From Halalkalirubrum salinum (GTDB lineage: Archaea > Halobacteriota > Halobacteria > Halobacteriales > Haloferacaceae), in NCBI RefSeq assembly GCF_005543295.1, contig NZ_SRSG01000059.1, positions 199,247 through 263,246 on the forward strand: a stretch of DNA of 64,000 nt, given 5' to 3'. Below the pieces are notes generated by a model. The model worked only from the letters and a program-made list of their open reading frames with translations, did no database searches and was not told the origin of the DNA. Shown here piece by piece: positions 4,535-13,812 of the stretch (within the stretch, counting starts at the first letter, position 1; each line of letters opens with the position of its first letter). The translations under genes were made by a program, and so were the position numbers.

Positions 4535-5998
4535 ATGTCGGAAACTGCTGTTCGGGTTCGGGGCATCTACACGACCGCGCTTACCCGACTCCTGCTCGAC
4601 GAAGCGCTGACAGTTGTCCAGGCGTCCGAGCCGATCGAGCGGCGCTTCGAGACCTCGTTCCCGACAACTGCAGCGGACGCGGTAGTCGAGACAACCACAG
4701 ATCGCCAGGGGGTCTCGATCACCGGCCATCCCGATGCCGTCGCGGACGTCTGCGACGCGATCGGGTCGGTCGGAATCGACACGTTCGTCTGGCGGGACGC
4801 GCTTGCGCCGGGGACGATCGCCGACGGACGGGTCGAACGGACGGTAGGTGGTGGGGCGATTGTCGATCTCGGGCTCGAATCGATCGACGGCCCCGGGGAC
4901 GGGACCGGCTATCTGCCCTTCAGCGCGGTCGACGATCGGATCGACACGGGCGACGTGGTTCGCGTGCAGGTCGAATCGGGGGCTCCGCCGTGGGGAGACA
5001 GTCGCCCGCGTCTGCGTGGATCGATCGCGGTCGACGCGGGGCTTGCGAGGGTCATCCCCGGCAGTGACGGCGTCACGGTCGACACGCACGATGAGGCCGC
5101 CGGCCGGGAACTGGTCGGGATGACGGAGTTACTCGGGACGACTCCACCGGATGGATGGGGACTGCACTGGTCGCACGCGGCGACGAAGGCCGTGATGGAC
5201 GAGCTGTCAGCGTCGCTGGCTGTGGCGACCGATCGAGCCGAAACGATTGCAGAAGCGCTCCCCGGAGCGATCGAGGGCGGCACGGACGCGGCGGGAGATG
5301 AGCCCATGGTTCTCGTGAGCGATCGCGAGGCGCGGTGGGCGTGGTTCGGCCGAGAGTCGCGATTCGAGCTGGACGAGATTCGGCAATCGGTCACGACCAC
5401 CATGACCGGCCACCACCGGATCAAAGCCGGGACCGATCGTGCGAGCGCCGGGGTAGACTTCGTCGAGGCGCTGTGTGATCTCGACAGCGAGGCGGAATTT
5501 CCATTCGAGGTCGTGACCGATCAGTTCGGCCCGGCGACAGGCGATCGCGTCGCGATCGAACACGGCAAACCCGACGGACGCGCGTTTGCGCTCGGAACGG
5601 GAACAGTGACCGAACGGACCGCAGATGGGACGCTCACGATCGAGCGGGAGATGACCGGCGGCGGAACGTACGACGCGCTGGGGGTCGATCGGGTCGCAGG
5701 CGACATCGCAACGACAACCGTTCGTGAGGGGCGATGGTGGTATCCGACTGTGTATCGAAGCGCCGACGGCGACCTGAAGGGGACGTATGTGAACGTCTGT
5801 ACGCCTGTGGAGTGTTTCCCGGACGCAGTCCGGTATATCGATCTTCACGTCGACGTCATCAAACACGCCGACGGGCGCGTAAAGCGAGTCGACGACGACG
5901 AACTCGACGAAGCAGTGCAAGCGGGGGAACTGACCGAAGAGATCGCCGAAAAGGCCCGATCGGTTGCGGCGTCGATCGATCGGGCGCTGAAGTCGTAA
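4535..5998 (+). CDS. Probable ribonuclease/RNA-binding protein FAU-1
   Basis: A 487-residue protein of the archaeal FAU-1 (RNase E/G-like, AU-rich RNA-binding) family. An S1-like segment occupies about residues 85-170 (ADGRVERTVGGGAIVDLGLE ... GDVVRVQV). The C-terminal DUF402 domain, about 370-480, has YVNVCTPVECFP and the acidic YIDLHVDVIKHADG strand expected for its metal site. Characterised members bind AU-rich RNA and cleave rRNA precursors. GTG 4529 is in frame and overlaps the previous stop, but ATG 4535 two codons later is the likelier start. It forms an operon with the upstream small gene. Confidence 0.85.
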   Translation: MSETAVRVRGIYTTALTRLLLDEALTVVQASEPIERRFETSFPTTAADAVVETTTDRQGVSITGHPDAVADVCDAIGSVGIDTFVWRDALAPGTIADGRVERTVGGGAIVDLGLESIDGPGDGTGYLPFSAVDDRIDTGDVVRVQVESGAPPWGDSRPRLRGSIAVDAGLARVIPGSDGVTVDTHDEAAGRELVGMTELLGTTPPDGWGLHWSHAATKAVMDELSASLAVATDRAETIAEALPGAIEGGTDAAGDEPMVLVSDREARWAWFGRESRFELDEIRQSVTTTMTGHHRIKAGTDRASAGVDFVEALCDLDSEAEFPFEVVTDQFGPATGDRVAIEHGKPDGRAFALGTGTVTERTADGTLTIEREMTGGGTYDALGVDRVAGDIATTTVREGRWWYPTVYRSADGDLKGTYVNVCTPVECFPDAVRYIDLHVDVIKHADGRVKRVDDDELDEAVQAGELTEEIAEKARSVAASIDRALKS

Positions 5999-11621: not shown

Positions 11622-11690
11622 CCACGGGTTTCCGAAATGTCCGTTTTCGGCTTTCGCAAATCTTCGATTTGCTCAACACCTGACCCGTGG
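11622..11690. repeat. Left-end hairpin of the IS, expanded by an internal mini-hairpin
   Basis: Arms CCACGGGT (11622-11629) and ACCCGTGG (11683-11690) enclose 53 nt, against a 4-nt loop at the other end. The loop contains a perfect mini-hairpin, GCAAATC-TTC-GATTTGC (11656-11672), and a second imperfect stem CCGAAA/TTTCGG (from 11632). The left end therefore appears to have been enlarged. Confidence 0.7.
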
Positions 11691-11709
11691 GTGAATAGCG
11701 TACGCTTGC

Positions 11710-12205
11710 CTAATGTTCCGTCTCCTCGATGTACCGACGAACCACATCCTCGGAAACTGCATCCATTGTTCCGGCGTAGTATCCGTCCTTCCACAGGCCA
11801 CTTCCCCAGAAGTACCGCTGTTTGAGTTCAGGGTGACGCTTGAGAATCGTTCGTCTCGAGTAGCGCTTGAACTGCTTCGCTATCTCGGCAGGACTCCATT
11901 TGGGGTCGGCCTCTACGAACAAGTGAACGTGGTCGGTGGCAATCTCTATCGACACAATCTCGTGACTAAACCGTTCAGCAGTCCCTTGGAACAATTCCAC
12001 AAGTTCGTCTCGAACTAATTCCAACACCCTGTGCCGGTACTAAGCGGAGCGAAGCCCCGCGAGGTACGCAAAGCTTCGCTTTGCTTGACTTCGGACATTG
12101 CAAATCTCTGATTTGCAAGCAGTCAATCTTTGATTGACGACACCATACGAAATGATACTTACACAAACTAATCGAATGTGCATGACTCCTATAGTCTTCT
12201 ATCAT
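11710..12205 (-). pseudogene. tnpA: tnpA, IS200-type Y1 transposase, interrupted
   Basis: The start, MIEDYRSHAHSISLCKYHFVW (from ATG 12205), and the rest, YRHRVLELVRDELVELFQG ... RRYIEETEH, are two parts of one IS200 Y1 transposase in different frames. The metal-binding His-x-His (DHVHLFV) and the C-terminal helix with the likely catalytic Tyr are kept in the second part. Between them lie about 94 extra nucleotides made mostly of small hairpins. The total is not a multiple of three, and the first frame runs to a stop at 11975. The enzyme is therefore probably not made, unless from the internal ATG at 12027, which would lack the first strand. Confidence 0.85.
12044..12138. repeat. Cluster of four mini-hairpins inside tnpA
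   Basis: Four small palindromes follow each other: 12044-12060 (7-bp stem, one mismatch), 12068-12084 (GCAAAGC-TTC-GCTTTGC), 12098-12118 (9-bp stem TTGCAAATC/GATTTGCAA) and 12122-12138 (GTCAATC-TTT-GATTGAC). All have 3-nt loops. On one strand or the other the loop reads GAA, AGA or AAA closed by C-G. They fill the gap between the two halves of the transposase frame. Confidence 0.85.
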
Positions 12206-12245
12206 AATCCCTACTTTTATTATCATTAAATGCGATAGTTAAGGT

Positions 12246-13616
12246 ATGGGTATCGAAGAAGTCACGAAGACCGCACGCACCCGACTCTGTATCGAGTCTG
12301 GTGAGCGGTCGTGGCTCAAAGATGCCCGTTACATTGCACGAGACATAGCCAACGACACACTCCGACTCAAACAACAAGGCTACAACAAGACCGAGATTCA
12401 ACGGGAAGTTGACCGTGAGGACTTCCTTCGGAACAACAAGTGCGCGGTCGTCGGCAAAGCTCTGCAAGCGTGGGATTCCTACAAAGAACTTCTCAACTGG
12501 TGGTACAACCAAGACGACACCAACGTCGGGAAACCGTCGCCACCAGCCACAGACAAGAAAGGAGCCTACCCACTTGTCATGGCACACACCGAAGGGTACC
12601 GACTCACCTACAACGACGAAACTCACCGCGTTCAGTTCCGTGTGAGTCCGAAGCCGTACAAGAAGGTGAAAGGACACCTTCGAGGACGATCAGAAGACCT
12701 CAATCTCATCGAGTCAGCATTGGTGGAAGATGAGTGGTCGTTGGGGCAGGCCGAACTTCTGTCTCGAAAATCAAAGATTTTCGACGAGTCATCGAAGTGC
12801 CGTGGCACTTCGAGATACCGAGATGGCGTGTACTACCTACACGTCACGGTCAAAACAAAAATCCAAGTGCCTGAACCAGAAGACGCTGACACACTCGTCG
12901 GCGTCGATATTAACGAGCGCAACATCGCTCTCACCGCTCTTACTCGTGAGACGGTGGAGACGCTCGGAACACTCGTACTTGATTACGGCTCGGTGAAAGC
13001 CGAACGCCAACGCTACCACACCATCACGAAACGGTGTCAAGAACACGGCCAACACTCCATCCACCACCAACTCGGAGAGAAAGAAGAACGCTATACGGAG
13101 TGGATTCTTCACCGACTCTCCCGAGTCGTGGTGGAGTTTGCTCAACAGTTCTCGAACCCAGTTATCGTGTTTGAGGACTTGAGTGGGATTCGAGACGCCA
13201 TCAAGTACGGCACGTACATGAACCGTCGATTGCACAAACTGCCGTTCCACAAGTTCGAGAAACAGGTTCGATACAAGGCCACGTGGAATCAAATCCCGTG
13301 TGAGACGGTTGAGTCGCCGTACAACTCGAAGTCATGTTCGTGCTGTGGACACCGTGGCTACCGCCAAGGTCGGCGGTTCCGGTGTACGAATGATTCGTGT
13401 GCGGTTCAGCAAGACCATGCTGACCGGAACGCAAGTGTGAATGTGGCGTGGCGAGCGTGGGCAAAACACGCTGGCGTAGATGTTGAATTGGTTAATTACC
13501 GGACTCACAAAACCCAACCACAAGTTCGGTTGGTGCGTCTGTCCGGGTCGGGGCGCTCTGTAAACCGCCCATCCTCATCCCGTGAAATCGCTTCGCGTGG
13601 AGTGCTATCGGCATAG
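12246..13616 (+). CDS. tnpB: TnpB, RNA-guided nuclease of IS200/IS605
   Basis: A 456-residue TnpB. The three RuvC acidic residues are present: Asp221 in VGVDINERN, Glu310 in VFEDLSGI and Asp393 in HADRNASVNV. The zinc-finger cysteines (CSCCG ... CTNDSC) lie before the last one. TnpB proteins are guided by an RNA made from the element's 3' end and help retain the transposon. The length is slightly above usual because two hairpin-forming segments are inserted in frame at about residues 173-190. A TTTATTAT box about 27 nt before ATG 12246 suggests leaderless transcription. Codon use lacks the local CGATCG habit. With tnpA broken, this could be a domesticated or stranded nuclease. Confidence 0.92.
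   Translation: MGIEEVTKTARTRLCIESGERSWLKDARYIARDIANDTLRLKQQGYNKTEIQREVDREDFLRNNKCAVVGKALQAWDSYKELLNWWYNQDDTNVGKPSPPATDKKGAYPLVMAHTEGYRLTYNDETHRVQFRVSPKPYKKVKGHLRGRSEDLNLIESALVEDEWSLGQAELLSRKSKIFDESSKCRGTSRYRDGVYYLHVTVKTKIQVPEPEDADTLVGVDINERNIALTALTRETVETLGTLVLDYGSVKAERQRYHTITKRCQEHGQHSIHHQLGEKEERYTEWILHRLSRVVVEFAQQFSNPVIVFEDLSGIRDAIKYGTYMNRRLHKLPFHKFEKQVRYKATWNQIPCETVESPYNSKSCSCCGHRGYRQGRRFRCTNDSCAVQQDHADRNASVNVAWRAWAKHAGVDVELVNYRTHKTQPQVRLVRLSGSGRSVNRPSSSREIASRGVLSA
12764..12813. repeat. Two mini-hairpins inside tnpB, in frame
   Basis: TCGAAAATC-AAA-GATTTTCGA (12764-12784) has a perfect 9-bp stem. TCGAAGTGCC-GT-GGCACTTCGA (12792-12813) has a perfect 10-bp stem. They code for the segment from SRKSKIFDESS to KCRGTSRY, between QAELL and RDGVYYLHV, where related TnpB proteins, as I remember them, run straight on. 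The reading frame is kept. Confidence 0.8.
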
Positions 13617-13626
13617 GCTGAGGAAA

Positions 13627-13812
13627 TTACAAAAGCCACGGGTCACCCGACCCGTGGTTGTTTACCTCTTGGAACCATTGCTCGAGATCCTGCCGTCGAC
13701 GCTGCTGGGCAAGTTCCTGAAGGAGTTCGTCGTAGGTCTGCCCGGGCTCTTTCAGGTCGTGGAGTTCTTTCCGGGTTTGTTCGGTCACCGGGATGCGTTT
13801 GTCAGCCGACAT
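13627..13812 (-). CDS. Antitoxin-like small protein (DUF7557-like), 3' end replaced by IS sequence
   Basis: A 61-residue protein: MSADKRIPVTEQTRKELHDLKEPGQTYDELLQEL is typical of haloarchaeal antitoxin-like (VapB/DUF7557) proteins. The last residues, NNHGSGDPWLL, are translated from the terminal hairpin of the IS, so the native end has been lost. No toxin gene is adjacent. The product may still fold, because the conserved part precedes the junction. A possible continuation lies on the other side of the IS (minus strand below 11621). Confidence 0.7.
   Translation of the reverse strand: MSADKRIPVTEQTRKELHDLKEPGQTYDELLQELAQQRRRQDLEQWFQEVNNHGSGDPWLL
13636..13657. repeat. Right-end hairpin of the IS
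   Basis: CCACGGGTC-ACCC-GACCCGTGG is a perfect 9-bp stem with a 4-nt loop, 20 nt after the tnpB stop. By analogy with known TnpB systems the guide RNA (omega RNA) would derive from the tnpB 3' end through this end, with the guide reading into flanking DNA to the right. That is inference. Confidence 0.8.

Follow-up and report, generated by a model that had tools for sequence, protein, structure and literature searches.

Paired hairpins in an IS200/IS605 element of Halalkalirubrum salinum and a probable haloarchaeal family of short double-hairpin insertions

The 64,000-nucleotide stretch of Halalkalirubrum salinum DNA analysed here (hereafter the window) contains a 2-kb insertion sequence (IS) of the IS200/IS605 group that is crowded with very small hairpins. 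What are these hairpins, and how did they come to lie there? An earlier note, made from the sequence, had listed seven of them, took them for one shape rather than one element, tied them to IS605 and offered two origins, fold-back synthesis on single-stranded transposon DNA or acquisition. The window hairpins probably make up, two by two, four members of a family of short (~45-60 nt), non-coding, insertional double hairpins that extends across the haloarchaea. Its unit consists of two near-perfect hairpins, mostly with 3-nt loops closed by C-G, with a short linker between them.

Four insertions in one IS element

All seven hairpins were recovered. Five are perfect, with 3-nt loops and stems of 7-9 bp (11656-11672, 12068-12084, 12098-12118, 12122-12138 and 12764-12784), and 12792-12813 is perfect with either a stem of 10 and a 2-nt loop or a stem of 9 and a 4-nt loop. 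The perfection ascribed to the whole set holds for these six and fails for 12044-12060, which has one A.C mismatch here but none in the sister copy L008. An eighth hairpin that had been overlooked (11632-11650), imperfect here and perfect in L008, is the partner of 11656-11672. The whole window has eight perfect triloop hairpins whose stem reaches 7 bp or more, and five of them fall in the IS. The sequence GCGAAGC is present in two hairpins, as reported before (12049-12055 and, on the opposite strand, 12073-12079). The oligonucleotide d(GCGAAGC) forms an exceptionally stable DNA mini-hairpin, whose class is C(GNA)G. Folding of the four inserts described below as single-stranded DNA gave z-scores of -2.7 to -4.8. 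A known RNA family was rejected as their identity: in Rfam none of the inserts had a match, the omega-RNA and a sub-threshold isrJ hit being all that was obtained.

The element was aligned with the same-genome copies L008 and L009 and with four hairpin-free plasmid relatives (~87% identity), the comparison proposed in the earlier note. The hairpins resolve into four exact insertions of 47, 49, 45 and 54 nt (LE, A2, A1 and B; Table 1), each made of two hairpins and a linker of 3-7 nt, and acquisition is thereby borne out. The two adjacent hairpins come and go as one unit, whose presence varies among close relatives. Insert LE is found also in L008, in L038 and in about 12 short IS derivatives of the same genome, and the left-end hairpin loop is the insert-free CACCTG in L001-L004 and L009. 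A2 is bordered by the 3-nt direct repeat ACT; its site is empty in L001-L004, L009 and L038, and an in-frame 51-nt version occurs in other IS. A1, at whose ends GAC is repeated, is shared with L008, L009, L061, L067 and L089 and is the only one of the four in L009. Insert B stands between GQAELL and YRDG of TnpB; it is present in L008 and L027 and absent from the other relatives, including the 98%-identical L038. The copy L008 has A1, A2 and B, whereas L038, from another organism, lacks all three but carries LE; the flanks of the two are 99.1% (443 nt) and 98.2% (624 nt) identical.

It may be asked whether the hairpins are ancestral functional parts of IS605, belonging to its left-end architecture or to an insertion loop of TnpA, that were occasionally lost precisely through short flanking repeats. 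A2 occupies the same tnpA codon in several subfamilies and in many haloarchaeal genera, with conservation of all but its loops, the left-end loops of several IS families hold units, left ends bearing LE have transposed, and omega of tnpA is 0.06-0.28 in carriers. Against this, near-identical IS differ in three units, homologous left-end loops are occupied by differing unit types, TnpA is broken in some A2 carriers (see below), and units also lie in trpB, in an ABC gene and inside other units, such as the further unit nested in A2 of L036 and L080. The earlier note had regarded recurrence at the same places in independent lineages as the mark of ancestral parts. A2 and the left-end insert do recur in distant IS lineages, but their presence is scattered: A2, A1 and B are dispersed over the IS tree, and sisters on the tnpA tree differ in A2. 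Because of this scatter and of the near-identical empty copies, the units are not simply ancestral parts, and we regard that origin as unlikely. Apart from its loops, A2 hardly differs between tnpA genes whose proteins are ~37-60% identical. Since these genes diverged long ago and their A2 is almost the same, a recent arrival of A2 is the most straightforward interpretation.

Frequency, linkers and covariation in haloarchaea

Densities were derived from sampled stretches and genome searches. Arrays of at least two hairpins number 12 in 400 kb of haloarchaeal stretches, partly selected for arrays, whereas 2 Mb of simulated sequence held 2; when 1.2 Mb of haloarchaeal stretches, for the most part unselected, was scanned generically for at least two adjacent perfect hairpins, 10 arrays turned up, and third-order simulations totalling 3.6 Mb gave 3. 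Chance palindromes due to base composition were rejected by the simulations and by single-hairpin controls. The enrichment at IS605 for which the earlier note had proposed a scan was found: arrays accompany 12 of 50 haloarchaeal IS200/IS605 tnpA loci, about ten times the rate of the sampled stretches, compared with 1 of 30 DDE-transposase loci (p=0.013) and none of 24 non-haloarchaeal tnpA loci of the phylum (p=0.006). The tie to IS605 is not exclusive, for units occur also in trpB, an ABC exporter gene and intergenic DNA. Overall they were seen in tnpA, tnpB, left-end loops, other units, ordinary genes and intergenic DNA.

The shape is shared while the stems differ, 82 unique arrays holding 106 distinct ones. 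The loop is closed by C-G in 173 of 190 array hairpins versus 186 of 556 single hairpins, and among the 219 triloops of a larger set compiled later 159 read GNA or TNC, which is its complement, versus 16 of 197 in single hairpins. Linkers recur, namely TCATCA, GAGGTAC/GAGGTCC, TGACTGA, CAGCCCA, TCGCACA, CTTTC and GGATAC, and several of them are combined in four-hairpin arrays. The view of one shape without one element is therefore right as to shape, but the hairpins are variants of a recognisable family with conserved linkers, and its unit is the pair. A consensus over the whole element was not found: stems vary and conservation is confined to linkers and ends. Four-hairpin arrays in L082, L083, L085-L087, L095, L097 and L100 have the form GGTTCG-hp-TCATCA-hp-GGACCTC-hp-TCAGTCA-hp-CGAAC (hp, hairpin) with fixed linkers, and one of their hairpin modules is common with the A2 insert of tnpA.

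A covariance model of the TCATCA type (R1; GTGGTT-hairpin-TCATCA-hairpin-AACGAC), in which 1 of 21 pairs is placed one column off, matches 90 of 99 haloarchaeal genomes and 79 of the 80 near-complete ones; a genome has at most 57 matches, both strands counted, which correspond to about half as many places (up to ~28). Of 85 genomes from the phylum's other orders, 10 have matches; most are weak and occur singly, one genus being exceptional. This genus (g99; genomes G267, G276 and G283), outside the haloarchaeal order, has 11-33 R1 matches at ~1e-10 or weaker and could be the outer limit of the double-hairpin family. A second model, of the CAGCCCA/TCGCACA type, has matches in 31 of 40 genomes, with 44 in G011 and 32 in G019. 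Double hairpins of this type form head-to-tail tandem copies at G011:C49:7615-7840.

In the 31 distinct members of 56 nt, pairing reaches 99.2% in one stem and 98.8% in the other, and 75 cells are changed on both sides, so that stem changes are compensated. The covariation score is 0.306 versus 0.115 for shuffled alignments (reached in 0 of 500) and 0.045-0.099 for slid controls. Changes near the tip come as blocks (CG, GA or AT at positions 12-13; permutation p 2e-4), and orthologous copies differ mainly in their loops, often by exact inversion (GT/AC in insert B between the window and L027; GAA/TTC in A2).

These features bear on the fold-back origin, in which the hairpins would be synthesised in place on single-stranded IS DNA and no mobile element would be involved. 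Perfect stems, inverted loops and tips exchanged as blocks all fit it, as does the random strand of GNA between the two hairpins of a unit (opposite strands in 26 cases, the same strand in 22). The same count gives no support to a signature of strand-specific single-strand transfer. At the empty sites compared, neither arm of an insert pre-exists; linkers such as TCATCA, GAGGTAC and CAGCCCA are common to unrelated sites and genera; and units stand in ordinary genes. Fold-back synthesis alone cannot yield whole units with shared linkers at homologous places, and as the sole origin it is rather improbable. It may explain perfect stems and flipped loops, not the shared linkers, and is plausible as an editor of stems and loops after insertion.

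Junctions and reading frame

Comparison of empty and filled left ends places the TCATCA-type insertion at CCTCGGGGTCAAG|CCCCGAGG; junctions of this type are also found at GCAAAG|CTTCGC for the unit nested in A2 (L036, L080) and at TCG|CTCC at a third tnpA site (L070). In these three filled/empty comparisons a core of ~54 nt, longer where stems are longer, sits between G and C without duplication. Target duplication is absent from LE, B and the TCATCA-type sites, and direct repeats of 3-5 bp flank A2, A1 and the units in trpB and the ABC gene. In several IS families the left-end loop is occupied by a unit, whose type differs between homologous loops. Flank complementarity was found in 25 of 49 cases against 20.5% in shuffled ones, the excess coming mostly from related IS left ends; targeting of hairpin loops by the units is suggestive only. 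The tnpA C-terminal end after VEKYIQR is a further recurrent insertion place (L233, L242, L255, L261), with linkers of the GGCA/TGCC type.

Inserts in genes that stay open have lengths that are multiples of three. In genome G226 the trpB gene carries an in-frame unit of 60 nt (20 codons) at a site that is empty in 12 relatives, and an ABC exporter gene of G008 carries one of 45 nt (15 codons), also in frame, in the part for the nucleotide-binding domain, where nine relatives are empty; these two and the tnpB insert contain no stops. The short-chain dehydrogenase (SDR) gene of L380 (G037:C57, ~5603-5659) is frameshifted at LVNN|AGYG by a unit of ~53 nt, a length read from the sequence. Insertion itself is therefore not frame-respecting, and the in-frame cases look like survivors of selection. 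Note that reading frames around genomic copies of the TCATCA type are uninformative in these GC-rich genomes.

A2 is in frame at 51 nt (WCPK-SSKAKLCVPRGISDPAQ-YRH) but frameshifting at the 49 nt found in the window's group, and stops, including TAG, are present in several copies. TnpA is thus broken in the copies with the 49-nt form or TAG, and A2 as a translated functional loop was rejected as a general explanation given the many copies with stops or frameshifts. In frame-broken tnpA copies the downstream part has an omega of 0.08-0.28 at a synonymous divergence (dS) of 0.2-0.7. Together with the stops inside several inserts, this could mean that the inserts are spliced from RNA by archaeal splicing or skipped by ribosomes, like the byp elements of yeast mitochondria. 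Recent insertion accounts equally well for the low omega (L008 versus L038), in-frame, stop-free inserts in trpB, the ABC gene and tnpB would be needless if inserts were removed, and no matching take-off and landing codons were seen at A2. Splicing or bypass is accordingly given very little credence.

Mode of spread and known systems

The best reading of the units is as short non-coding selfish DNA. They would propagate as DNA, most likely in the form of folded single strands with very stable C(GNA)G tips; such a route is probable because loops of this type confer stability on DNA and because IS200/IS605 elements move single-stranded. They would settle where single-stranded or hairpin DNA lies exposed, as in IS605 intermediates and hairpin loops, and the survivors would be those that keep the frame or lie in tolerant loops. 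With either arm able to act as template for its partner, stems would remain perfect and loops would flip. A tentative and more specific possibility is a shape-propagated mobile DNA: a folded strand of two C(GNA)G mini-hairpins enters exposed single-stranded or hairpin DNA and has its stems and loops rewritten arm on arm, so that structure and linkers are inherited and the stem sequence is not faithfully so.

Several points weigh against such a family of insertions. No transposition event, free form or mobilising enzyme was seen in the sequences analysed, and no target motif is conserved beyond G|C, itself limited to one subfamily and the three filled/empty comparisons. Gain and loss are not separable everywhere, because older inserts could have been lost precisely through the short direct repeats that flank A2, A1 and the units of trpB and the ABC gene. 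Copy number exceeds the number of independent insertions, because many units travel with their host IS, and the p-values overstate independence, because the hairpin sets were partly collected by similarity.

As to the enzyme, the units might be non-autonomous elements resembling repetitive extragenic palindromic sequences (REP) and bacterial interspersed mosaic elements (BIME), or tiny miniature inverted-repeat transposable elements (MITEs), moved in trans by a Y1 transposase of the IS200/IS605 or RAYT-like kind. Y1 enzymes typically recognise hairpins, and enrichment in IS605, the G|C cases without target duplication and the occupied left-end loops agree with this. It appears unlikely all the same: a unit's two hairpins have unlike, freely varying stems, a conserved foot tetranucleotide was not observed, target flanks vary, and no Y1 gene was detected in about half of the haloarchaeal genomes sampled, no search aimed at RAYT having been made. 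As units are present in 90 of 99 genomes of the same sample, many genomes now bear units without a detected Y1 gene.

Among known systems, Rickettsia palindromic elements (RPE) are in-frame palindromic selfish DNA in protein genes that apparently still function, and insertion in open genes was found here too (trpB, ABC exporter, tnpB), the SDR gene being the counter-case. RPEs are bacterial, measure ~100-150 nt and have a consensus sequence in common, whereas the haloarchaeal units measure 45-60 nt, form two separate hairpins and have free stem sequences. IS200/IS605 MITEs resemble them in having two hairpins per short non-autonomous unit and, as far as LE, B and the TCATCA-type sites are concerned, no target duplication, but here the hairpins differ from each other and from the host IS ends (CCACGGGT...ACCCGTGG), so the ends proper to such MITEs are lacking; true MITEs of the window IS (~0.3-0.4 kb) exist separately in the genome. 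REP/BIME with RAYT are alike in their short palindromes, many copies and tie to single-strand transposition. By definition REPs lie outside genes and share a consensus motif (PMC12306157), and the units differ from them in that many are intragenic, stems are variable and no conserved foot was seen. The nearest analogues, along with RPE, are the mitochondrial double-hairpin elements (DHE) of Allomyces and the repetitive hairpin-forming elements (RHE) of sponges (PMC2800124), which are also short, paired, non-coding hairpins in many copies whose presence varies among relatives. DHE and RHE lie in genes at non-critical places and are kept in transcripts, and the Allomyces elements have no reported flanking duplication (PMC2800124). 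Both belong to eukaryotic organelles, whereas the haloarchaeal units lie on chromosomes, plasmids and IS elements and differ by GNA/TNC triloops, in-frame insertion and strong IS605 association; given the phylogenetic distance, common descent is unlikely.

No description of haloarchaeal double hairpins was found in the open-access literature searched, subscription journals being outside its scope, and the family is apparently undescribed so far. It would add a nearly universal insertional DNA class to haloarchaea, whose in-frame units lengthen proteins such as TrpB. The many pairs of filled and empty sites are a natural system for the question of how palindromes spread and stay perfect, which has stood since the mitochondrial double-hairpin elements were described. 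Caution is called for with young palindromic inserts in alignments of haloarchaeal proteins and omega-RNAs.

The host carries all the parts of an IS200/IS605 element (Table 1), namely a Y1 TnpA (Pfam PF01797, E=1e-28), a TnpB (Cas12f1-like_TNB), left-end and right-end hairpins and an omega-RNA. Its tnpA is disrupted: two inserts split the 3' part from the 5' part and the frame is broken.

Table 1. Coordinates of the host element and its inserts in the window.
Feature	Position	Strand	Details	Basis or remark
IS left-end hairpin CCACGGGT...ACCCGTGG	11622..11690	+	arms 11622-11629 and 11683-11690	insert LE in loop; alignment
Insert LE, 47 nt	11630..11676	.	hairpins 11632-11650, 11656-11672; linker CTTTC	in left-end hairpin loop
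tnpA 3' part	11710..12041	-	Y1 transposase, YRHRVL to stop	PF01797
Insert A2, 49 nt	12042..12090	.	hairpins 12044-12060, 12068-12084; linker GAGGTAC	tnpA CPK|YRH codon
Insert A1, 45 nt	12097..12141	.	hairpins 12098-12118, 12122-12138; linker GCA	in tnpA; in-frame length
tnpA 5' part (MIEDYRSHAHSISLCKYHFVWC)	12142..12205	-		alignment
tnpB, 456 aa	12246..13616	+	Cas12f1-like_TNB	open despite insert B
Insert B, 54 nt	12762..12815	.	hairpins 12764-12784, 12792-12813; linker CGAGTCA	in frame in tnpB
omega-RNA	13495..13684	+	Rfam RF02657 sot2652, 129.5 bits	overlaps tnpB 3' end
IS right-end hairpin CCACGGGTC-ACCC-GACCCGTGG	13636..13657	+		alignment, hairpin scan

Short derivatives of the IS with differing flanks lie on contigs C42, C26, C36, C51, C11, C27 and others of genome G000 (L013-L018, L026). 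Where both ends are visible they measure ~0.3-0.4 kb and consist of a left end with the LE double hairpin and a right end; they are a MITE family descended from the insert-bearing IS. Since they carry the LE insert at several genome places, the left end altered by it still transposes. In L061 and L080 a tnpA segment with the catalytic HVH motif is gone and hairpin remnants stand where L070 and L075 have an insert, which suggests a deletion adjoining a unit. One of the few arrays outside IS605 in a mobile gene is an in-frame double hairpin near the C-terminus of a DDE_Tnp_1 transposase (L216:1460-1500).
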